In this document: in pieces, positions 5,656 to 63,556 of the stretch
How positions within the stretch are numbered: position 1 is the stretch's first letter
Layout of the letters: each line of letters opens with the position of its first letter
NCBI RefSeq assembly: GCF_000190435.1
Contig: NC_015152.1
Coordinates: forward strand, 254,458-318,457
Source: Sphaerochaeta globosa str. Buddy
GTDB taxonomy: Bacteria; Spirochaetota; Spirochaetia; Sphaerochaetales; Sphaerochaetaceae
Direction of reading: 5' to 3'
Length of the DNA stretch: 64,000 nt
Notes under the pieces: generated by a model
What the model was told of the DNA's origin: nothing
Databases searched by the model: none
The model's input: only the letters and a program-made list of their open reading frames with translations
Made by a program: the position numbers and the translations under genes

Positions 5656-6543
5656 CTACTCGAACCGACGTTCAAATTTCCTGCTGATGTATTGCAGGAT
5701 AAGAATCAAACCAACTGCCAACAGGACAATAATCATCGAGGCGGCACTGCCGAAGCCGTATTTGTAATACTTGAAGGTGTTGATATACATGTAGATGGCG
5801 ATCACTTCGGTGAAATGCGCGGGCCCGCCACCGGTCATGGAATAAATGAGGTCGAAAGCCTTCAGGCTTCCCGAGATGGCAAAGATGGCAGTGGTAGCGA
5901 TGGTGCCCACCATGCTGGGAAGAATGATTCTTCTGAGCATCTGCGATTCGCTTGCCCCATCGATTTGTGCCGCTTCCAGGAGGGAAGGTGTCATTTTCTG
6001 CAGGTTTGCATAGAAAATAATCATATACGTTCCGGTATGCATCCAAAGCAGGACAAAGAGTATGGGGTAAATAGCCATTTGCTGGTTTTCGAATATCCGC
6101 ATGACATACTGGCTTTCGCCCGTCAATTTTCTGATTATGGCTACCACCATTCCCGATGCTGAAAATATCTGATTCCACAAGAGGGCAACCACAACCGGGG
6201 AGATGGTAATGGGTAAGAAAATCATGGTCTGGTAGAACTTGCCGTTACGGACCATGTTCCGGTGTAAGAGGAATGCCAAGAGAAAGCCCAAGGGGATCTG
6301 GCCGAACACCGAGACGGCTACGATCAAAAGGTTGTTTCTCAGGGAGTGACGAAAGACTTCGTCGCCGATGATCTTCGCATAGTTATCCAACCCGATAAAC
6401 GCAGGCTTTCCATACCCTCCGAAGGAGGTGAAGCTCAACGAGAAGCTGTAGGCCACCGGAAAAATGATGATTGCGGCGAACAGAAGCAGACCCGGGGCCA
6501 GCAGGATATAGTAACTCATCCGTTTTTGTTGTGAGAAAGTCAT
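5656..6543 (-). CDS. Carbohydrate ABC transporter permease, MalF-type
   Basis: 295 residues, multiple membrane segments, and the EAA loop LLEAAQIDGASESQMLRRIILPSM near residue 200. The start MTFSQQKRMSYYILLAPGLLLFAAIIIFP is the usual opening of CUT1 MalF-type permeases. It forms the membrane channel with the product of the next gene and receives substrate from the binding protein encoded upstream. A stable hairpin (6565-6596) separates it from the binding-protein gene. Confidence 0.93.
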   Translation of the reverse strand: MTFSQQKRMSYYILLAPGLLLFAAIIIFPVAYSFSLSFTSFGGYGKPAFIGLDNYAKIIGDEVFRHSLRNNLLIVAVSVFGQIPLGFLLAFLLHRNMVRNGKFYQTMIFLPITISPVVVALLWNQIFSASGMVVAIIRKLTGESQYVMRIFENQQMAIYPILFVLLWMHTGTYMIIFYANLQKMTPSLLEAAQIDGASESQMLRRIILPSMVGTIATTAIFAISGSLKAFDLIYSMTGGGPAHFTEVIAIYMYINTFKYYKYGFGSAASMIIVLLAVGLILILQYISRKFERRFE

Positions 6544-52863: not shown

Positions 52864-53052
52864 GATCAGAGCTATAGGGTGGTTTGCCAATTCGGGTATA
52901 CAGGAAGCGATGTGATACCAGTAGAGCATATACAGATTTTAACGAAAGGGTTGCAGAATCCATCAATTTGGTATAGGAACTATCTCTGAGCGTGCAATGG
53001 AAGTTTAACCCACATGCTTTACTACAACCAGATAAAGGGGAGTGTAAGACTC

Positions 53053-53415
53053 ATGGTAACACCTACACCCAAGAAACGCAAAACCACAGCAATCATCGAC
53101 GAATCCCGCATGGATCAGATCAAGGCTTTCGTGCAAGGTGCTGTCTATTGCTATTGCAATGTCGCCGACCAGGGATCGAAGTTTTCGGCGCGAGACCTGT
53201 TCGGTGCATATGACAGCCTATGGAGCGCCACTCCATTGAAGGCATTGCATCAATGGCATACGGATAACGATGCTGACGACCCGGCAGGGATGGCGGGAAA
53301 GGACCTTGGATGGATCCTGCTCGATGTACTCGATAGTGATGTCCGCCAGTTCCGTAAGAGCAAGGAAGTCGTCAATGTCTATGAATGGCTGCCCTCCGAG
53401 GGAGTGGGAGTCTGA
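53053..53415 (+). CDS. Small hypothetical protein sharing a DLF motif with its neighbour
   Basis: 120 residues from ATG 53053; an upstream in-frame start at 53014 has no better site. The segment SKFSARDLFGAYDSLWSATPLKALHQW parallels the DLF-x2-Y-W region of the protein at 52630-52863, suggesting a divergent relative with a longer N-terminus (a helix rich in Lys and Arg) and C-terminus (GKDLGWILLDVLDSDVRQF). Function unknown. Confidence 0.55.
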   Translation: MVTPTPKKRKTTAIIDESRMDQIKAFVQGAVYCYCNVADQGSKFSARDLFGAYDSLWSATPLKALHQWHTDNDADDPAGMAGKDLGWILLDVLDSDVRQFRKSKEVVNVYEWLPSEGVGV

Positions 53416-53476
53416 TCAGATCAGGATGGAAGCCCCCCAGGTTGAGGCCAATTTTCTTGCCAAGACCATCATAGGG

Positions 53477-53504
53477 GACTTTTACTTGAAATTGAGTAAA
53501 AGTC
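53477..53504 (+). repeat. Module A, part 1: 10-bp stem hairpin
   Basis: GACTTTTACT (53477-53486) and AGTAAAAGTC (53495-53504) are perfect complements around TGAAATTG. The same AGTAAAAGT word recurs in the early phage promoter region at 57713-57740. Confidence 0.8.
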
Positions 53505-53542
53505 TATACACGCTTCAGATCGCGCTTCTCATCATATCAAGC

Positions 53543-53755
53543 GGGACACCCCTGCCTACGGGACAGCCGATGTTAGCGGGTGTCCCCATACTGTCCCAAG
53601 ACGCAACTCATGTCACACAATATATAAGCGAGGCTTTGGGGCAGTGGGACAAGAACTCATATAACAAGAGTTTTATTGATGGAAGAGGAGTGGATGCAAC
53701 GCGAGCACCCGTATACATTTATAGGGCGTAGTGTCCAGTCTGTCCAGCTGTCCCA
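53543..53755 (+). repeat. Module A, part 2: interleaved GGGACA/TGTCCC words
   Basis: Order on the plus strand: GGGACACCC (53543-53551), GGGACAG (53560-53566), GGGTGTCCC (53578-53586), CTGTCCC (53591-53597), TGGGACA (53645-53651), TGTCC (53732), TGTCC (53741) and TGTCCCA (53749-53755). The first four form an a-b-a'-b' arrangement, i.e. a pseudoknot-compatible or alternative-hairpin pattern. ATAT-AAG and TATA-GGG stretches lie between them. No gene is seen in 53416-53760. Confidence 0.75.
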
Positions 53756-53762
53756 GCAGCGG

Positions 53763-53909
53763 GTGAACACAACTGGCGTTCACAACACAACTTTTTTCCT
53801 TATATTCAAAATCGATTTCCCTTATAGGGAAGAACCGGCCTGCAGGCGCATACCCGCGTTAGCATATATAAGGGAAAAGTTGTTCAGTTGTGTCACTTGT
53901 GATCACAAG
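53763..53909 (+). repeat. Module B: nested CACAAC/GTTGTG words and a 14-bp palindrome
   Basis: ACACAACTG (53767-53775) pairs with CAGTTGTGT (53885-53893), and ACAACTTTT (53787-53795) pairs with AAAAGTTGT (53875-53883) inside it; GTGAAC/GTTCAC (53763, 53778) overlap the first arm. TTCCCT-TAT-AGGGAA (53817-53831) and the perfect palindrome CTTGTGATCACAAG (53896-53909) complete the module. No gene is seen. Confidence 0.75.
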
Positions 53910-54057
53910 GGGATGATGTCGTATCCGTCGATTGGACTGGGAGAGACACTTTAGCGCAAAATTGAGCCTAAGTATCGCCCTCATGGGTTTCTCATCGGGA
54001 AGAACATTGAAGAGCTGTACGGACCCGGTTCTTATCCACTTTGCCGGTGGCCGAAGA

Positions 54058-54133
54058 GGTTCTTGGGAACCAGCGACTCTCTGGGGAACAGCACGTCGAT
54101 TGTACCCGTGTTCTTGCCATGGCAATGGGTACA
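54058..54133 (+). repeat. Cluster of palindromes between modules B and C
   Basis: GGTTC-TTGG-GAACC (54058-54071), TGTACCC/GGGTACA (54101-54107 and 54127-54133) and, within the latter, the perfect 12-bp palindrome TTGCCATGGCAA (54114-54125). No convincing gene overlaps. Confidence 0.6.
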
Positions 54134-54272
54134 TGCGCGGTAACACGCCATGTGTCGTTGCCGAATCTACAATTACGGAGGATTTGTTCTTATGTTCCTG
54201 AAATATCATTTGTCATCATTATCAATATTATATGGGGAGAAGACCAGCGCGGCATGCCCGTATGCACATATT

Positions 54273-54628
54273 CACGCGTATAGGGGTTTTTCGGCTTTTG
54301 GGTACGGCGTTCGGAACAACCGCATGGCATGAACTTTCGACCAAATTTGAGCGAAAGTACCAAACCGACACGTGTGATGGTGAAGGGGATGATTCAACAG
54401 CGAAGGAACAAGAATCAGCTCGTTCCAAGCTTTTCCTAGAACTCGTTCTACAAGAAATCGACGAAATTCCACCCGAGGATGCAGGTTTTAAAGGATTTGG
54501 AACGAAGGAACAAGAATATACTAAAAAGACTTTTATGAGGAGAACAGAGGGAAGAGGAAGCACGGATACGCTTATACGCACGCGTATAATATATAGGGAT
54601 TCCTTGTTCTGCTTGTTCCTTCGTTCCA
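54273..54628 (+). repeat. Module C: GGAAC words with 17-bp inverted arms
   Basis: The arm at 54498-54514 (TGGAACGAAGGAACAAG) is the exact complement of 54612-54628. A 15-nt part, CGAAGGAACAAGAAT, is also directly repeated at 54401-54415 and 54503-54517. ACTTTCG/CGAAAGT (54333-54339, 54352-54358), CACGCGTATAGGG (54273-54285) and the palindrome TATACGC-AC-GCGTATA (54573-54588) followed by ATATAGGG also belong here. A 139-codon open frame spans this region but has no ribosome site and its sequence is dictated by the repeats. Confidence 0.75.
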
Positions 54629-54692
54629 TGATGGGATGGGTTGTTTCTTGATTTTTGGAAACTTCTCAAAATCGACTTGCATCCGCATGGCA

Positions 54693-54998
54693 GGTGACGG
54701 TCGTGACAGTCTTATCCAAGACTTCGTATTAAGGGGTTTTTTAGGGAAAAAAGAGCCTATAGGGGGTTTTAGGAATAGAGTTTCACGACCGTCACCCGAT
54801 GAAGGATATCTGCTTAAAATCAAGGTGCCTTTTCATGAAGCAACTGCCGCAGTGATATTTCTGGAATCGACCTGCTCTGACCTTGCACATTGCCAAAGTC
54901 TGCAGGTCGAGAAGGTCATAGAGAGAACTTCGCTTTAAGGGGGATTTTTGGAAAAAATAACCTATAGGGGGTTTTAGGAATAGAGTTTCACGACCTGC
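54693..54998 (+). repeat. Module D: two copies with a 70-nt shared scaffold and changed words
   Basis: Copy D1: GGTGACGGTCGTG (54693-54705) is the perfect complement of 54784-54796. Copy D2: CGACCTGC (54868), TGACCTT (54878), GCAGGTCG (54902), AAGGTCA (54912) and CGACCTGC again (54991-54998), an x-y-x'-y'-x order. 54721-54790 and 54927-54995 are near-identical, including 35 identical bases (54756-54790 and 54961-54995) that carry CCTATAGGGGGTTTTAGG. The words at the ends differ while the scaffold is kept. Confidence 0.85.
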
Positions 54999-55209
54999 AC
55001 CGCCATGATACAGCCAAAAATCTGAAGGATCAGCCCATCTTTGGAAAGTACCCTACTGAACTGTAGCGCATTATGACCACCAAGCCTATGGAAACGGAAA
55101 AAGCATAAGTAAGAGGCAACAAGGGGACAATCTATCCCCCTGTTGTTATTCAAAAGCCTTACTTTCCATTTCACGATGTCAAAAATAATGGTAAAATAAG
55201 TAGAAGGCG

Positions 55210-56073
55210 GTGATAAAATTGGCAACACTAATTGCAGCAGAATACAAACAATTTGAAGATATAAAGCACACTACTGAAAACGGCATAGAGTTTTGGTATG
55301 CCCGTGAACTTGCTAGTGTCCTTGATTATACCCAATGGCGTAATTTCACAAAGGTAATTGATAAGGCGATGTTGTCCTGTCAGAACAGCGGTTTTGAATG
55401 TGCAGACCATTTTCTTGAGGCCAGAAAAATCGTGGAGGCAGGTGCAACCTCTAAGCCGATAAATGATTTTGAGCTTTCACGCTATGCCTGCTATCTCATC
55501 GTGCAAAACGGGGATCCACGCAAAGATCCTATTGCTCTCGGTCAAACCTATTTTGCTATACAAACCCGCAGACAGGAAATAGCTGATCGGTTTAATGAGC
55601 TTGACGAGGATAATAAACGCCTTGTTATCCGTGGCGAGGTCACAAGTTGGAACACTATGCTTGTGGAAGCAGCACATAAAGCGGGCATCACCGACCAGTT
55701 GGAATATGCTCAGTTTCAAAATGCAGGCTACATGGGATTGTATGGCGGCTTGACCGCCGCAGATATTCACAGACGGAAAAAACTCAAAACAAGTGAGAAA
55801 ATTCTCGACCATATGGGCAGTGAAGAACTCGGTGCAAACCTGTTCCGCATTACCCAGACCGAGGCAAAACTCCGACGTGAACAGCCGCAAGGACTGGAAA
55901 CGGCAAGTGGCATGCATTACCAAGTCGGACAGACTGTTCGTGAAGCTATCGCAAAAAACGAGGGTACAATGCCGGAGAATTTACCCACTCCTGAAAAGAG
56001 CATTTCCGAAATTGGCAAGGAACAGCTTAAAAAGCTGAAAGAGAAAAAAGAGCCACCTATGCTTGATGAATAG
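55210..56073 (+). CDS. dinD: DNA damage-inducible protein D homologue
   Basis: 287 residues. The N-terminal BRO-N-like domain (NGIEFWYARELASVLDYTQWRNFTKVIDKA) and the middle RYACYLIVQNGDPRK and IQTRRQEIAD are diagnostic of DinD, an SOS protein that in E. coli inhibits RecA filaments. The GTG at 55210 gives 287 residues; a TTG at 55219 gives the common start (M)ATLIAAEY. Upstream 55000-55209 contains no recognisable gene or LexA box. DinD is often carried by mobile elements. Confidence 0.93.
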   Translation: MIKLATLIAAEYKQFEDIKHTTENGIEFWYARELASVLDYTQWRNFTKVIDKAMLSCQNSGFECADHFLEARKIVEAGATSKPINDFELSRYACYLIVQNGDPRKDPIALGQTYFAIQTRRQEIADRFNELDEDNKRLVIRGEVTSWNTMLVEAAHKAGITDQLEYAQFQNAGYMGLYGGLTAADIHRRKKLKTSEKILDHMGSEELGANLFRITQTEAKLRREQPQGLETASGMHYQVGQTVREAIAKNEGTMPENLPTPEKSISEIGKEQLKKLKEKKEPPMLDE

Positions 56074-57829: not shown

Positions 57830-58291
57830 ATGAACCTACAGTATTGCCCGTCGGTTTGGACGGCCAAGATGGAACTCAGGTCCCTGCAGGATGAGCTCGA
57901 GGGGTGCGTGGGACGCAGGTCCCCCAATCCCATGGGCATGCGCATGGGAGGAGGAACCCACGGAGATCCGACCGGAAGCGCCGCGATCAGGCGCGAGGCA
58001 TTGAGACGGCGGATCGATGGAATGATCGAGCGCTGCGAGACGATCATCGACAGGGCAGAGGATGAGCTTCAGTTGATAGCGGATGCGGAGTTCCGCGCCC
58101 TGCTCAGATGGCGCCATTTCTTTCACCGCTCGTGGCGTGAGATCGCCAGCGAGTATCCCAACCGCCCCTCGGCCGATGCGATCAAGAAACGCTACCAGCG
58201 CTTTTGCACCGAGTATGGCATCGAGGTCAACGATGAGGAGGTCCGCTTGGGAACCTTCGTGAAGGAGGCATATGCCTATGGAGCCTCGTGA
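57830..58291 (+). CDS. Phage sigma-70 region 4-like (ArpU-type) regulator
   Basis: 153 residues, strong AAGGAGG site. N-terminal glycine-rich linker (PMGMRMGGGTHGDPTGSAA), a coiled region (RRRIDGMIERCETIIDRAEDELQLI) and a C-terminal HTH: LLRWRHFFHRSWREIASEYPNRPSADAIKKRYQRF. The WREIA...RY pattern is that of sigma region 4 or ArpU-like late-gene activators in phages of Firmicutes type. It overlaps the primase-helicase gene by 14 nt and probably regulates phage genes. Confidence 0.7.
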   Translation: MNLQYCPSVWTAKMELRSLQDELEGCVGRRSPNPMGMRMGGGTHGDPTGSAAIRREALRRRIDGMIERCETIIDRAEDELQLIADAEFRALLRWRHFFHRSWREIASEYPNRPSADAIKKRYQRFCTEYGIEVNDEEVRLGTFVKEAYAYGAS

Positions 58292-61271
58292 GTATTGCGA
58301 GCTGTTCTTCGGTCCGCTGTCGCCCGATGACAACATCACCCTTTCCTGGCTCGTCGGCAAGCGTTGCCGCAGCAAACGATTCAAACGGAAGGATCTGGAT
58401 GCGTTCGTCGAAAAGGCTCTGAAGCTGGGAGAGCAGCATAACACCTTCTACAGCTGCGCTCCGACGAATCTGCCATTGGAGAGCACCGCCAGGGGATCGA
58501 ACGAGCAGGTGACGGCCATGTTGGCCTTCCATTTCGACATCGACCTGCTCAGCCTGGCCGCCCACGTCAAGCGCGAGCTGCCTGAGAGTGAGGAGGAGAT
58601 CAAGGCCTTCGTAAACGAGGAGCTGCCTAAGCCGACGGCGATCATCTTCAGTGGCCACGGGGTGCACCTTATCTACATCCTCGCCGTACCGATATGCATC
58701 ACCGACGAGGTATCGCGTAGGCGTGCGATCGAGTTGCAGCAGGCGTTCTTCCGCTATGTGAGTGCCAAGGCATCAGAGCGTGGCTGGAAGATCGACAATT
58801 GCAGCGACCTTGCCAGGATGCTGCGCTTTCCCGGTACGATGAACCTCAAGGACAGTGAGCACCCGGTGCGCTGTGAGATAAGGGAGATGGACGGGCATCT
58901 GTATACTTTGGAAGAGCTGAAGCCCTACCTGGTGTTCGCTGATGCCAAAGAAGCCCCTCTGGCCTCGCCAGTGCCCCAGAAGGGTGAAAAGGCGTATCCT
59001 GATGCTCTCGAGGCTTCTCGCATCTATGAAGGGTGTGCTGTCATCAGGGATCTGATGGAGCACCCCGAGAAACAGACCGAGCCGCTATGGAAAGCATCAC
59101 TGGACAACCTTTGCCTGGCATCGGATGGAGTACAGGCGTGCCACGAGTTCAGCCAGGGCTATGGAGGCTATTCGTTCGAGGAGACCGAGCGCAAGATCGC
59201 CCATGCCCTAAAGAGCCGCAAGCCGTGCACGTGTGAGCATTTTCGCACACTCGGTGCCGACTGCCCCGAAGGCGGTTGTGGCGTCAAGGCTCCCATCGTA
59301 TTCGCCCTTCCCACCGCTTGGGATCGGATCCAGAGCCTGCTTGGCCATGAGAAGCTGGATCCGGCGATGTTTCTGGATGAGGGCAATAGGGAGCTGCTGG
59401 CAATTGCGATGGACCGGTATCCCACCGAGTACGCCTATCTGAAGATGAAGCTGAAGAAAGCCGGATTTGGCCTGCGCGATATCGAGCGGGCGGTCAAGCA
59501 GACCAGGGCGCTCCTATACCAAGCGAACGCCGAGGAAGATTTCACCGTTGAATCGTGCGAGATCGAAATTGAGGGCTTGGACCTTGGTGGGATGATGGAT
59601 CCTCCGGGTTACCGTGTGGATATGGAGGAGGGCGTGCGGTCATTCCACGAATTCAAGGGAGAGATGCAGTGCACCGAGTTGTGCAGCCGACCGGTCGTGA
59701 TCACGCGCATCATGGAGAATGTCGACACCGGCTGCGAGCGCATGGAGCTCGCATTCTGGCGTAGTGGCCGCATCAAGCACCTGATCGCACAGCGCTCTGA
59801 GCTGCTGAACAAGAACTCGCTGGTAAAGTATGCGGATACCGGCCTTCCGGTAACCTCGAGCAACAGCGAGGGGATGGTGATGTACTTCAATTCCTTCGAG
59901 GTTGCCAACCAGGAGCTGATCCCGCTCTCGCGCAGCCTGGGTCGCATCGGGTGGCTCTCCGGCTTCAAGGAATTCTATCCCTGTCATTATCAGGGACAGA
60001 TCGTCTTCGAGGATGCCGATCAGGACCTGGTCAAGGCGATCGGTGAGCAAGGCGACTACGAGCTATGGAAACAGACCGCGATGAAACTGAGGGAGAATCC
60101 CATCGCCCGGGCGATGCTGAATGCTGCGGCGGCCTCGGTGCTGCTTGAGCCCTTGAAGCTGAGGATCTTCATCCTGCACAGCTGGTTCTCATCGCGTAGC
60201 GGCAAGACGGCCGCCTTGAAGTTCGCACTCTCCTTCTGGGGGGATCCGATGAAGATGATCGGCAACTTCAACAGTACTGCTGTCGGCTTGGAACGTCGTG
60301 CTGGCATGCTCAAGCACCTGCCGCTGGGAATCGATGAGCTGCAGCAGATGGCACGAAATCTCACCCCGGCGATGGCGGTCTACCAGTTGGGAAACGGTCA
60401 GGGCAAGACCCGGGGCATGAAGAACGGAGGATTGCAGGAGACATTAACCTGGCGAAACAGCATCATGACCACCGGAGAAGAGCCGCTGAGCAGCGAGAAT
60501 TCCATGGACGGGGTGATCAGCCGTGCGATCGAGCTCTACGGGGCCCCGATCGACGACCCCGAGTTCGGCCGCATGGTGCACCAAGTGAGTGAAGCCAATT
60601 ATGGATTCGCCGGAAAGATCTACATCAGGCATCTGATCGACCACGTGATCTCCGAGAAGGGAAAACTGGAATCCGACTACCATGATTTGCGAGCCCGGCT
60701 CAAGGAGGCTTTCGATGCCAAGGATCTGGGCGAAGCAGGGGTGCACCTGGACAGTGTCGCTGTCATGTGTCTTGCCGATCTGTATGGTGCACAGTGCCTC
60801 TATGGCGAAGCAACATTCCCGATTGAGACGATCATCAAGGATGTGATCGATATGGGAGTGGCGGTGCTGGTGAATGTGAAGGAGCAGGAAAAGGAAGACA
60901 GTATCGAACGGGCATGGAGCTTCGTACAGGGGTGGGTGGCCTCCAACCGCAACTGCTTCAAGCCCCATGCCACCCCACGGTATGGAAAACTGGAGAGGGA
61001 TGGGGTGTACATCACCATCAACATCCTCAGGGAGGCTATGGAAAGGGCCGGGTATTCGTATGCCAAATGCGTCAGGGGCTTTGTGGATCGGGATCACCTG
61101 AAACTCTTCCAGGACGGATCGAAAAAGGGCACGCACCAGTGTCAGAAAAAGATCAACGGCGTGAACAACCGAGTGGTGTGTGCCAACATCGAGGTGGGTG
61201 ATGTCGAGGATGATTGCTCGGAATTTCTCGAGGCGGGTGAGAGCTTTTTCACCCGCAAACGGATGGGGTAA
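58278..61271 (+). CDS. Phage primase-polymerase / DUF927-type helicase
   Basis: 997 residues. N-terminal AEP (prim-pol) domain: AFHFDIDLL (DxD, about residue 87), AIIFSGHGVHLIYIL (second motif) and DNCSDLARMLRFPGTMNLKD (third). A PriCT-like linker (ASRIYEGCAVIRDLMEHPEK; CTCEHFRTLGADCPEGGC, possible zinc site) leads to a DUF927 helicase with GRIGWLSGF, Walker A WFSSRSGKTAALKFA (about residue 640) and LPLGIDELQQMA as Walker B. It should start and unwind replication of the element. ATG 58278 is favoured over 58272 (9 versus 3 nt from AGGAGG). Its stop codon lies inside the first word of module E. Confidence 0.88.
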   Translation: MEPREYCELFFGPLSPDDNITLSWLVGKRCRSKRFKRKDLDAFVEKALKLGEQHNTFYSCAPTNLPLESTARGSNEQVTAMLAFHFDIDLLSLAAHVKRELPESEEEIKAFVNEELPKPTAIIFSGHGVHLIYILAVPICITDEVSRRRAIELQQAFFRYVSAKASERGWKIDNCSDLARMLRFPGTMNLKDSEHPVRCEIREMDGHLYTLEELKPYLVFADAKEAPLASPVPQKGEKAYPDALEASRIYEGCAVIRDLMEHPEKQTEPLWKASLDNLCLASDGVQACHEFSQGYGGYSFEETERKIAHALKSRKPCTCEHFRTLGADCPEGGCGVKAPIVFALPTAWDRIQSLLGHEKLDPAMFLDEGNRELLAIAMDRYPTEYAYLKMKLKKAGFGLRDIERAVKQTRALLYQANAEEDFTVESCEIEIEGLDLGGMMDPPGYRVDMEEGVRSFHEFKGEMQCTELCSRPVVITRIMENVDTGCERMELAFWRSGRIKHLIAQRSELLNKNSLVKYADTGLPVTSSNSEGMVMYFNSFEVANQELIPLSRSLGRIGWLSGFKEFYPCHYQGQIVFEDADQDLVKAIGEQGDYELWKQTAMKLRENPIARAMLNAAAASVLLEPLKLRIFILHSWFSSRSGKTAALKFALSFWGDPMKMIGNFNSTAVGLERRAGMLKHLPLGIDELQQMARNLTPAMAVYQLGNGQGKTRGMKNGGLQETLTWRNSIMTTGEEPLSSENSMDGVISRAIELYGAPIDDPEFGRMVHQVSEANYGFAGKIYIRHLIDHVISEKGKLESDYHDLRARLKEAFDAKDLGEAGVHLDSVAVMCLADLYGAQCLYGEATFPIETIIKDVIDMGVAVLVNVKEQEKEDSIERAWSFVQGWVASNRNCFKPHATPRYGKLERDGVYITINILREAMERAGYSYAKCVRGFVDRDHLKLFQDGSKKGTHQCQKKINGVNNRVVCANIEVGDVEDDCSEFLEAGESFFTRKRMG

Positions 61272-61661
61272 CGAAGTAACACCGAATTTTCACATATACC
61301 CATGCTATAGGAGAAAAAAAAGATGAGGGGTGCCACACGCCACGCCACAGGTGGAAATTGGCGGGTGGGAGTATACTTCTTTATTTCCCTATACGAGCAT
61401 ATCGATTATACGTTACTTATGTTACCTATAGGATACCATCAGTATAATTGCTTTCAATAGAATTACATGGACAAGGTAACGTTGTGGTAGCATACCAGCC
61501 TTTCAGAGTTACCTTTTTGGGGATTTGGGCGGCCTGAGCCCCGGTGGCGGAACTCGTGTGGTTTCAGCCCGACTCGGCACGCCATCCGATCCGTCACACG
61601 ACAAAGGCCTTTCCCTGCGGGTAACACCCGATGGTACCGCTGGGGAGGCCTTTTACGTTAC
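61267..61661 (+). repeat. Module E: GGTAAC and GCCAC words after the primase-helicase gene
   Basis: GGTAAC words: GGTAAC (61267), GTAACACC (61276-61283), CGTTAC (61411), GTTACC (61421), GGTAACG (61475-61481), GTTACC (61508), GGGTAACACCC (61619-61629) and CGTTAC (61656-61661), alternating in orientation. A second word, GCCAC, occurs at 61332, 61339 and 61344 with the complement GGTGG directly after. CTATAGGA-type words occur at 61305 and 61427. The whole 61272-61715 gap has no gene. Confidence 0.75.
61603..61654 (+). terminator. Possible terminator of the replication operon
   Basis: AAAGGCC (61603-61609) pairs with GGCCTTT (61647-61653), with an inner CCC/GGG and a CGGG/CCCG sub-hairpin, ending in a TTTT run. 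It stands between the primase-helicase and the DUF7666-like genes and overlaps one GGTAAC word of module E. Confidence 0.5.
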
Positions 61662-63001: not shown

Positions 63002-63556
63002 ATGGCCAAGGACGGAACGAACCGCGGCGGTGCCCAGATCGGCGCCGGTCGCAAACCCAAGGCGCTCGCCGAGAAGATTGCTAACGGCAATCCCGGGGGC
63101 AGGAAATTGAAGATATTGGATCTGAGCAAGGATGCGACGGACCTGGAGGGCTCGGACATGCCTCCGGTGAGGGATTTCATGAAGGAAGCCCAGCGTAGTG
63201 GTCTGGATTTGTGTGCCGAGGAGGTATTCACCGAGACCTACCTGTGGCTGAAGAAACTCGGGTGCGAGGAGCTGATATCCCGCCGGATGCTCGAGGAGTA
63301 CTCCATGTCGGTGGCTCGGTGGATCCAGTGCGAGATGGCCATCAGCCAGTTCGGATTCCTGGCAAAGCACCCCACCACCGGCGCTGCGATTCCCAGCCCG
63401 TATGTCGCCATGTCCCATGCCTTCATGAAGCAGATCAACCAAAGCTGGTATCACATCTACCAGATCGTGAAGGAGAACTGCACCAGGACGATCCCGAGCA
63501 ACAATCCCCAGGACGACATCATGGAGCGTTTGCTCACTTATAATCCACGAAGGTGA
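63002..63556 (+). CDS. Phage terminase small subunit, P27 family
   Basis: 184 residues. The N-terminus GGAQIGAGRKPKALAEKIANGNPG is the P27-family signature, followed by LAKHPTTGAAIPSPYVAMSHAFMKQINQSWYHIYQIV. The protein recognises phage DNA at packaging start. AAGGAGG lies 6 nt before the ATG. The large subunit should follow beyond the window. Confidence 0.88.
   Translation: MAKDGTNRGGAQIGAGRKPKALAEKIANGNPGGRKLKILDLSKDATDLEGSDMPPVRDFMKEAQRSGLDLCAEEVFTETYLWLKKLGCEELISRRMLEEYSMSVARWIQCEMAISQFGFLAKHPTTGAAIPSPYVAMSHAFMKQINQSWYHIYQIVKENCTRTIPSNNPQDDIMERLLTYNPRR

Follow-up and report, generated by a model that had tools for sequence, protein, structure and literature searches.

The iterons of the phage P4 ori and crr regions are words that occur in both direct and inverted orientation. 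In PICIs, the origin directly adjoins the 3' end of the initiator gene, and its layout is invariably that of two sets of iterons flanking an AT-rich region (PMC6092414). A phage origin supplied in trans can block the phage, as shown by the phage-encoded resistance (PER) of Sfi21 (PMC6356513), and the Vibrio satellite PLE and its phage ICP1 are in conflict over origin and iteron specificity, with covariation of RepA and ori and with the nuclease Odn (PMC8263062). The locus described here, found in a 64,000-nucleotide stretch of the Sphaerochaeta globosa str. Buddy chromosome (NC_015152.1; hereafter, the window), shares traits with each of these systems. Similar to PICI and SaPI origins, its elements have short iterons in two sets, one on either side of an AT-rich stretch, their phage counterparts lie directly 3' of an initiator gene, and the C-terminal winged helix of the VapE-type initiators matches that of SaPI PriRep1 (7pds); unlike those origins, the putative origins in the window are orphans that form a row of at least six, with several types of words, on an island with another initiator. 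The likeness to the P4 alpha system lies in the two orientations of the words and in the D5-type partner primases, which match TIGR01613 (phage/plasmid primase, P4 family), but P4 has its own initiator, and words and scaffold appear to differ. As with PER in Streptococcus phage Sfi21 and in lactococcal phages, a host carries phage origins in trans; however, PER involves one origin of one phage, whereas the locus reported here is a putative array for several initiators. Finally, the fight between satellite and phage over origin and iteron specificity has its parallel in PLE and ICP1, although PLE keeps its own RepA and one type of origin, without an array of foreign origins. Among the open-access papers searched, none described an array of origins for several initiators.

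The array spans 53478-55001 and comprises M1, M2, M2b, M3, E4, and E5 (Table 1). Every one of these modules, E4 and E5 included, contains more copies of its own word than Markov-shuffled sequences (p ≤ 0.005 for all).

Table 1. Coordinates of the array elements and of relevant island features in the window
Feature	Coordinates	Strand	Description
R1 palindrome	53478..53503	.	left of M1; piece of the antirepressor gene found ahead of the primase gene in phages
M1	53535..53760	+	putative orphan VapE-type origin; TGTCC words, 8 copies
M2	53764..53912	+	putative orphan VapE-type origin; TTGTG words
R2 palindrome	53948..53973	.	between M2 and M2b; assigned by shape and position, without a direct blast match
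M2b	54014..54330	+	putative orphan VapE-type origin; GTTCC words; carries the last ~20 codons of a primase gene
R3 palindrome	54333..54358	.	between M2b and M3
M3	54400..54632	+	putative orphan VapE-type origin; GTTCC words; starts inside a primase gene's 3' tail
E4	54693..54796	+	putative orphan origin element, D5_N/P4-type primase family; model R1, 87.5 bits (E4 itself in the training set)
Extra inverted iteron set TCGACCTGCTCTGACCTT	54866..54884	-	upstream of E5; inverted repeats I7 and I8
E5	54899..55001	+	second putative orphan D5-type origin; model R1, 73.5 bits, E = 7.2e-17 (outside the training set)
Island initiator	58272..61271	+	DUF927 helicase/primase with Cch-type HTH_56 domain; sequence match to 8tch
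Proposed own origin of the island	61268..61425	+	GTAAC iterons and, facing them, GTTAC iterons (spacing of 9 bp in both sets), right behind the 3' end of the DUF927 gene
Small terminase subunit, P27 type	63002..63556	+	no large subunit found among the open reading frames of the island

Two of the elements, E4 and E5, had already been described in a first-pass annotation of this DNA as near-identical tandem copies sharing 35 bases, and alignment bears this out: identity is 84% in an ungapped alignment of 68 nt and 87% in one of 76 nt (E = 1.5e-19), and 54756-54790 is the same as 54961-54995. In E4, the left iterons GTGACGGTC (54694-54702) and GTGACAGTC (54703-54711) and the right iterons GAGTTTCAC (54778-54786) and GACCGTCAC (54787-54795) are located in inverted arms of 25 nt (54693-54717 and 54772-54796; 84% complementary), around a middle part that is 63% AT, versus 43% for the arms. 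In E5, the left iterons are found at approximately 54901-54921 and the right ones, GAGTTTCAC and GACCTGCAC, at 54983-54991 and 54992-55000, respectively, with inverted arms of 13 nt (54901-54913 and 54987-54999; 92% complementary). The words of D5 type in the array are GTGAC and GTGCAGGTC, with GTGACGGTC in E4 and GTGCAGGTC-like words in E5. The annotation had also noted that the inverted words differ between the two copies. The words of E4 and E5 do differ, but CGACCTGC and TGACCTT, which it had placed in the arms, sit upstream of the second copy, at 54867-54884, where they are inverted relative to 54902-54921 and form a third word set for E5. The idea that the two copies diverged in place after one duplication is not supported: E4 and E5 are two of at least six captured putative origins, and their nearest relatives are separate phage sites.

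To place E4 and E5 in a family, a covariance model (model R1) was trained on 30 phage D5 elements plus E4, and 80 D5_N primase loci (PF08706) were fetched from IMG/VR. Model R1 located an element at the 3' end of the primase gene in 60 of 60 D5 loci, about half of which were absent from the training set; it did so once per locus, except for L024, where two elements were found. In this D5 phage, the tandem origins (5729-5832 and 5975-6079) follow the primase gene and have different words, resembling E4 and E5 in reversed order. Just 3' of the phage primase genes, the scaffold is shared while the words vary from phage to phage, and the AT content of the middle part exceeded that of the region in all 56 phage elements compared (56/56). 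Across approximately 138 Sphaerochaetaceae genomes, strong D5-type matches occurred only in islands such as the one studied here or at D5 primase ends. Searches for similar DNA in phage records returned nothing; in plasmid records, they returned one Peptoclostridium replicon, in which an E4-type element directly follows a gene annotated as "phage/plasmid primase, P4 family." The family has been seen in Sphaerochaetaceae, in this replicon, and in many IMG/VR phages.

On the basis of their location 3' of the primase gene and their two iteron sets with an AT-rich middle, both as in PICIs, we infer that the phage elements act as origins, and we consider it very probable that E4, E5, and their relatives are iteron-type origin elements of phage primases. 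Since E4 and E5 in the window, unlike the elements in all 60 phage loci, do not adjoin a D5_N primase gene, they are homologous, captured copies rather than resident origins. The elements could instead be operators, used for autoregulation of primase transcription or for control of later genes, as iterons can serve both purposes and the element does sit downstream of the primase gene and ahead of the gene that follows. Against this stand the two iteron sets flanking an AT-rich middle, the location 3' of the initiator gene as in PICI origins, and an initiator whose C-terminal domain resembles PriRep1, and we regard this explanation as very unlikely.

The first-pass annotation had read the self-complementary arms as a sign of compensating change, and hence of selection on either base pairing or paired protein sites. 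Among 31 aligned relatives, changes on both sides of the arms were seen in 17 of 20 pairs, with 90.7% of cells pairing, and the covariation score was 0.392, against 0.123 after shuffling and no more than 0.10 when the arms were slid. Compensating change, for which a covariation check had been proposed, is therefore real, but on the scale of the family. These numbers, together with the fold z score of E4 against dinucleotide shuffles (plus strand, element folded alone; -7.9, with -3.8 for E5), could be taken to mean that an RNA or single-stranded hairpin was selected, in which the complementarity of the arms is kept for the sake of base pairing. Several observations speak against this and favor the other half of the original claim, i.e., protein sites. 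First, words are repeated directly within an arm: same-strand neighboring iterons, 8 to 11 bp apart, shared their variable dinucleotide in 38 of 75 cases (12.6 expected; maximum of 24 in 10,000 shuffles), a pattern for which base pairing has no need. Second, the arms had about as many G-T mismatches (21) as A-C mismatches (20), whereas pairing in RNA would favor G-U. Additionally, further word sets lie outside the hairpin, and an Rfam scan of the window produced no family (tRNA and tmRNA genes were not found in the window either). The third argument, a link between the words of VapE-type elements and one residue of the initiator, is presented below. Taken together, the words look like protein-binding iterons of an origin rather than RNA structure, and we deem a selected hairpin extremely improbable.

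For the VapE-type elements, 79 primase loci (PF05272) were fetched from IMG/VR. In the approximately 138 genomes, VapE-type matches were found in islands or at VapE primase loci, with one short match of 47 positions (G041:C39) as the exception. Among 37 nonredundant VapE primases, one C-terminal column separated the words, with a mutual information (MI) of 1.17 versus a maximum of 1.02 in 200 label shuffles; no other column exceeded that maximum, with the caveat that such shuffles leave sequence relatedness in. TGTCC words came with arginine in eight of nine cases and TTGTG words with isoleucine in 20 of 22, while GTTCC words were accompanied by other residues. The accuracy with which a neighbor's label predicted the word was about 0.55 at the N terminus and climbed to 0.78 towards the C-terminal end, compared with a baseline of 0.59. 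The column corresponds to the X of GWERTxxX near the C terminus (e.g., in L071) and falls on the first strand of the wing in a predicted winged helix (pLDDT of 84 to 94 in this part); the predicted domain matches SaPI PriRep1 bound to double-stranded DNA (7pds; Z = 13.0, 2.1 Å over 99 residues), a relationship also visible at the sequence level (E = 3e-14). One wing residue of VapE appears to set the iteron word, with isoleucine for TTGTG and arginine for TGTCC. Column 742 of the D5 primases showed a split between arginine and isoleucine similarly far from the C terminus, but this did not rise above the shuffled maximum.

A cross-scan with model R1 and a second model, R2, yielded one match of R2 on the D5 loci (L252) and none of R1 on the VapE loci, bearing in mind that R2 misses M2b-like regions such as that in L024. 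Foreign origins visible to these two models are therefore rare outside islands.

The four VapE-type modules of the array all have counterparts in phages. M1 is 67% identical over 232 nt to primase 3' ends in L064 and L223 (R2, 17.9 bits); M2, which belongs to the R2 training set, scored 76.9 bits (E = 4e-23) and had 57 phage matches; M2b is 84 to 88% identical to the primase 3' ends of L026, L028, and L033; and M3 is 87% identical to the primase-end loci of L029, L030, and L031 (R2, 37.6 bits). When 53400-55210 was used as a query, the matches split into modules, with 54405-54630, 54014-54327, and 54692-54797 each found at separate sites in other genomes; the phage counterparts of these modules are located where the primase gene ends, ahead of a VRR-NUC gene. 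A 26-bp palindrome is present at three module junctions, and two of the three copies match a stretch of the phage antirepressor gene upstream of the primase gene; it may have been the point at which modules were joined. Among the copies, the stem differs but the palindrome is mostly kept. We also considered a CRISPR- or integron-like array with the palindromes as repeats, which was rejected, since two of the three belong to that antirepressor stretch and are not dedicated repeats. With their primase tails and antirepressor fragments, the modules look like primase loci minus the primase.

The genome studied here (G000) was found to contain neither a D5_N nor a VapE primase gene, and matching phages are absent from it; the array therefore serves no resident initiator of those types. 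Instead, it is part of an island that extends from approximately 49.65 to 70.03 kb (window scale) on the 3.3-Mb chromosome. Array and island are common to three genera of Sphaerochaetaceae, at 92 to 96% identity (88% at the left end in one of them), and Sphaerochaeta sp. UBA6084 and other Spirochaetia are among the relatives in which the same island is present. The island encodes IstAB, a double helix-turn-helix regulator, a DUF1413 protein, and a 133-amino-acid protein, followed by the array; the latter protein (53014-53415) has no match in Pfam, PHROG, or NCBIfam, and diverged copies exist in G041:C50 and G056:C16. Next to the array lies a gene for a DinD-like protein (55210-56073; DNA damage-inducible protein D, NF008573; PDC-S13 in PADLOC), and then come a DUF6076 protein, the DUF927/HTH_56 helicase, two DUF7666 proteins, the P27 small terminase, an amidoligase, and three large serine recombinases. 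The gene order of the island's right half recurs in a viral contig. The DUF927 protein matches 8tch ("Pathogenicity island protein"; E = 3e-20) and has solved helicases of pathogenicity islands and of the Cch type among its relatives. A Cch-like helicase and three large serine recombinases are reminiscent of SCC elements that carry Cch and large serine recombinases, but the Cch model scored 41 bits against a cutoff of 700, and the island, unlike SCC, has a small terminase and IstAB. Among its open reading frames, neither structural genes nor a large terminase gene were found. Its content fits a PICI-like set of genes: recombinases (of the large serine type), an initiator with an adjacent putative origin, a small terminase, and no structural genes. 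A row of putative origins for several phage initiators, on a satellite-like island that has none of these initiators, suggests a genetic parasite with the means to exploit several phages or to jam them.

The exchange of putative origins also runs in the opposite direction. Seven VapE phages (L030, L031, L061 to L064, and L135) carry amino acids 950 to 999 of the DUF927 protein plus 400 bp of the GTAAC region (approximately 81% identical) in a slot that precedes their small terminase gene, while the remainder of the DUF927 gene was not found in the fetched stretches of these phages. In some phages, the same slot holds a GTTCC-type region instead. Origins with attached initiator tails thus appear to move both ways between phages and islands.

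How could the island profit from origins without initiators? We propose that the array was assembled from origins of several phages, with loss of the primase genes. Upon infection by, or induction of, a phage with a matching initiator, the C-terminal winged helix of that initiator would recognize the words, and the AT-rich stretch in the island would be opened. Replication of the island would then occur at the expense of the phage (hitchhiking), and the phage's own origin would be deprived of initiator (interference, as in PER); with multiple types of words, a wider range of phages would be served. We give about even chances to this reading of the array as captured origins that are fired by incoming phage initiators or titrate them, hitchhiking being combined with interference; its premises are that initiators bind and fire the array copies and that island or host benefits. 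A broader version is conceivable but slightly more doubtful: Sphaerochaetaceae islands of this satellite-like kind would maintain a permanent stock of phage origins without initiator genes, such that any arriving phage replicates the island or loses initiator, while phages in turn keep the island's origin. This would be a multitarget origin array that evolved naturally. If the array works as proposed, satellites could do without a single dedicated helper, using or jamming several phages by means of cis-acting DNA and no protein. The pairing of one primase wing residue with the iteron word offers a recognition code that can be tested, and a two-way exchange of origins between phages and a satellite-like island bears on how conflicts between phages and satellites evolve. 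Even if the array were a mere scar, the "swapped words on one scaffold" would find their explanation in phage replication origins, which form a large family.

Such a scar would result if swaps of initiator plus origin between phages and islands left old, functionless origins beside new ones. The truncated primase tails and antirepressor fragments in the modules speak for this scenario, and the slots before the small terminase genes of phages likewise hold orphan pieces of origins. Four copies of the array are known (G000, G029, G168, and G041). In G029, E4 and E5 have collapsed into a single chimera, which also speaks for scars, and the exact copy number is therefore not essential. Among the islands, 15 of 253 word positions varied, compared to 107 of 955 in the rest of the modules (union test), i.e., variation in words is roughly half that of their flanks; the effect is modest (circular-shift p = 0.02), and a control with permuted words was not significant. 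(A one-way count, 6/452 versus 174/2270, is biased towards the window.) Against scars, every module contains the same functional part, the putative origin, from several types of initiators, rather than random phage DNA; high word counts persist in all modules; and the array has been retained in three genera. We therefore consider scars somewhat unlikely as the explanation for the array and continue to prefer captured origins that are fired or titrating.

A variant of the latter is pure decoy defense, a natural PER, in which the origins titrate phage initiators without ever being replicated. Besides the precedent of the Sfi21 origin, this is consistent with the presence of AbiEi/AbiEii genes inside the array of G168, inserted between M2b and M3 (L055, 8820-10250), and of an AbiEi-like gene after M2b, following the array, in G041 (L027). 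However, the AT-rich scaffold was kept along with the iterons, which goes beyond the needs of a decoy, and there are just one or two chromosomal copies per type of word, where a single chromosomal copy of an origin may titrate little unless it is fired. A pure decoy is, in our opinion, quite improbable, and replication of the island from its captured origins, combined with interference, remains our preferred reading.

Finally, an AbiEi-like gene is also found near array-like sequence in L034, which stems from another family (G075). Just to the right of the island in G000, beyond the window (72771-76289 on its scale), lies another stretch, containing a serine recombinase-like gene, which G029 shares at 92%.
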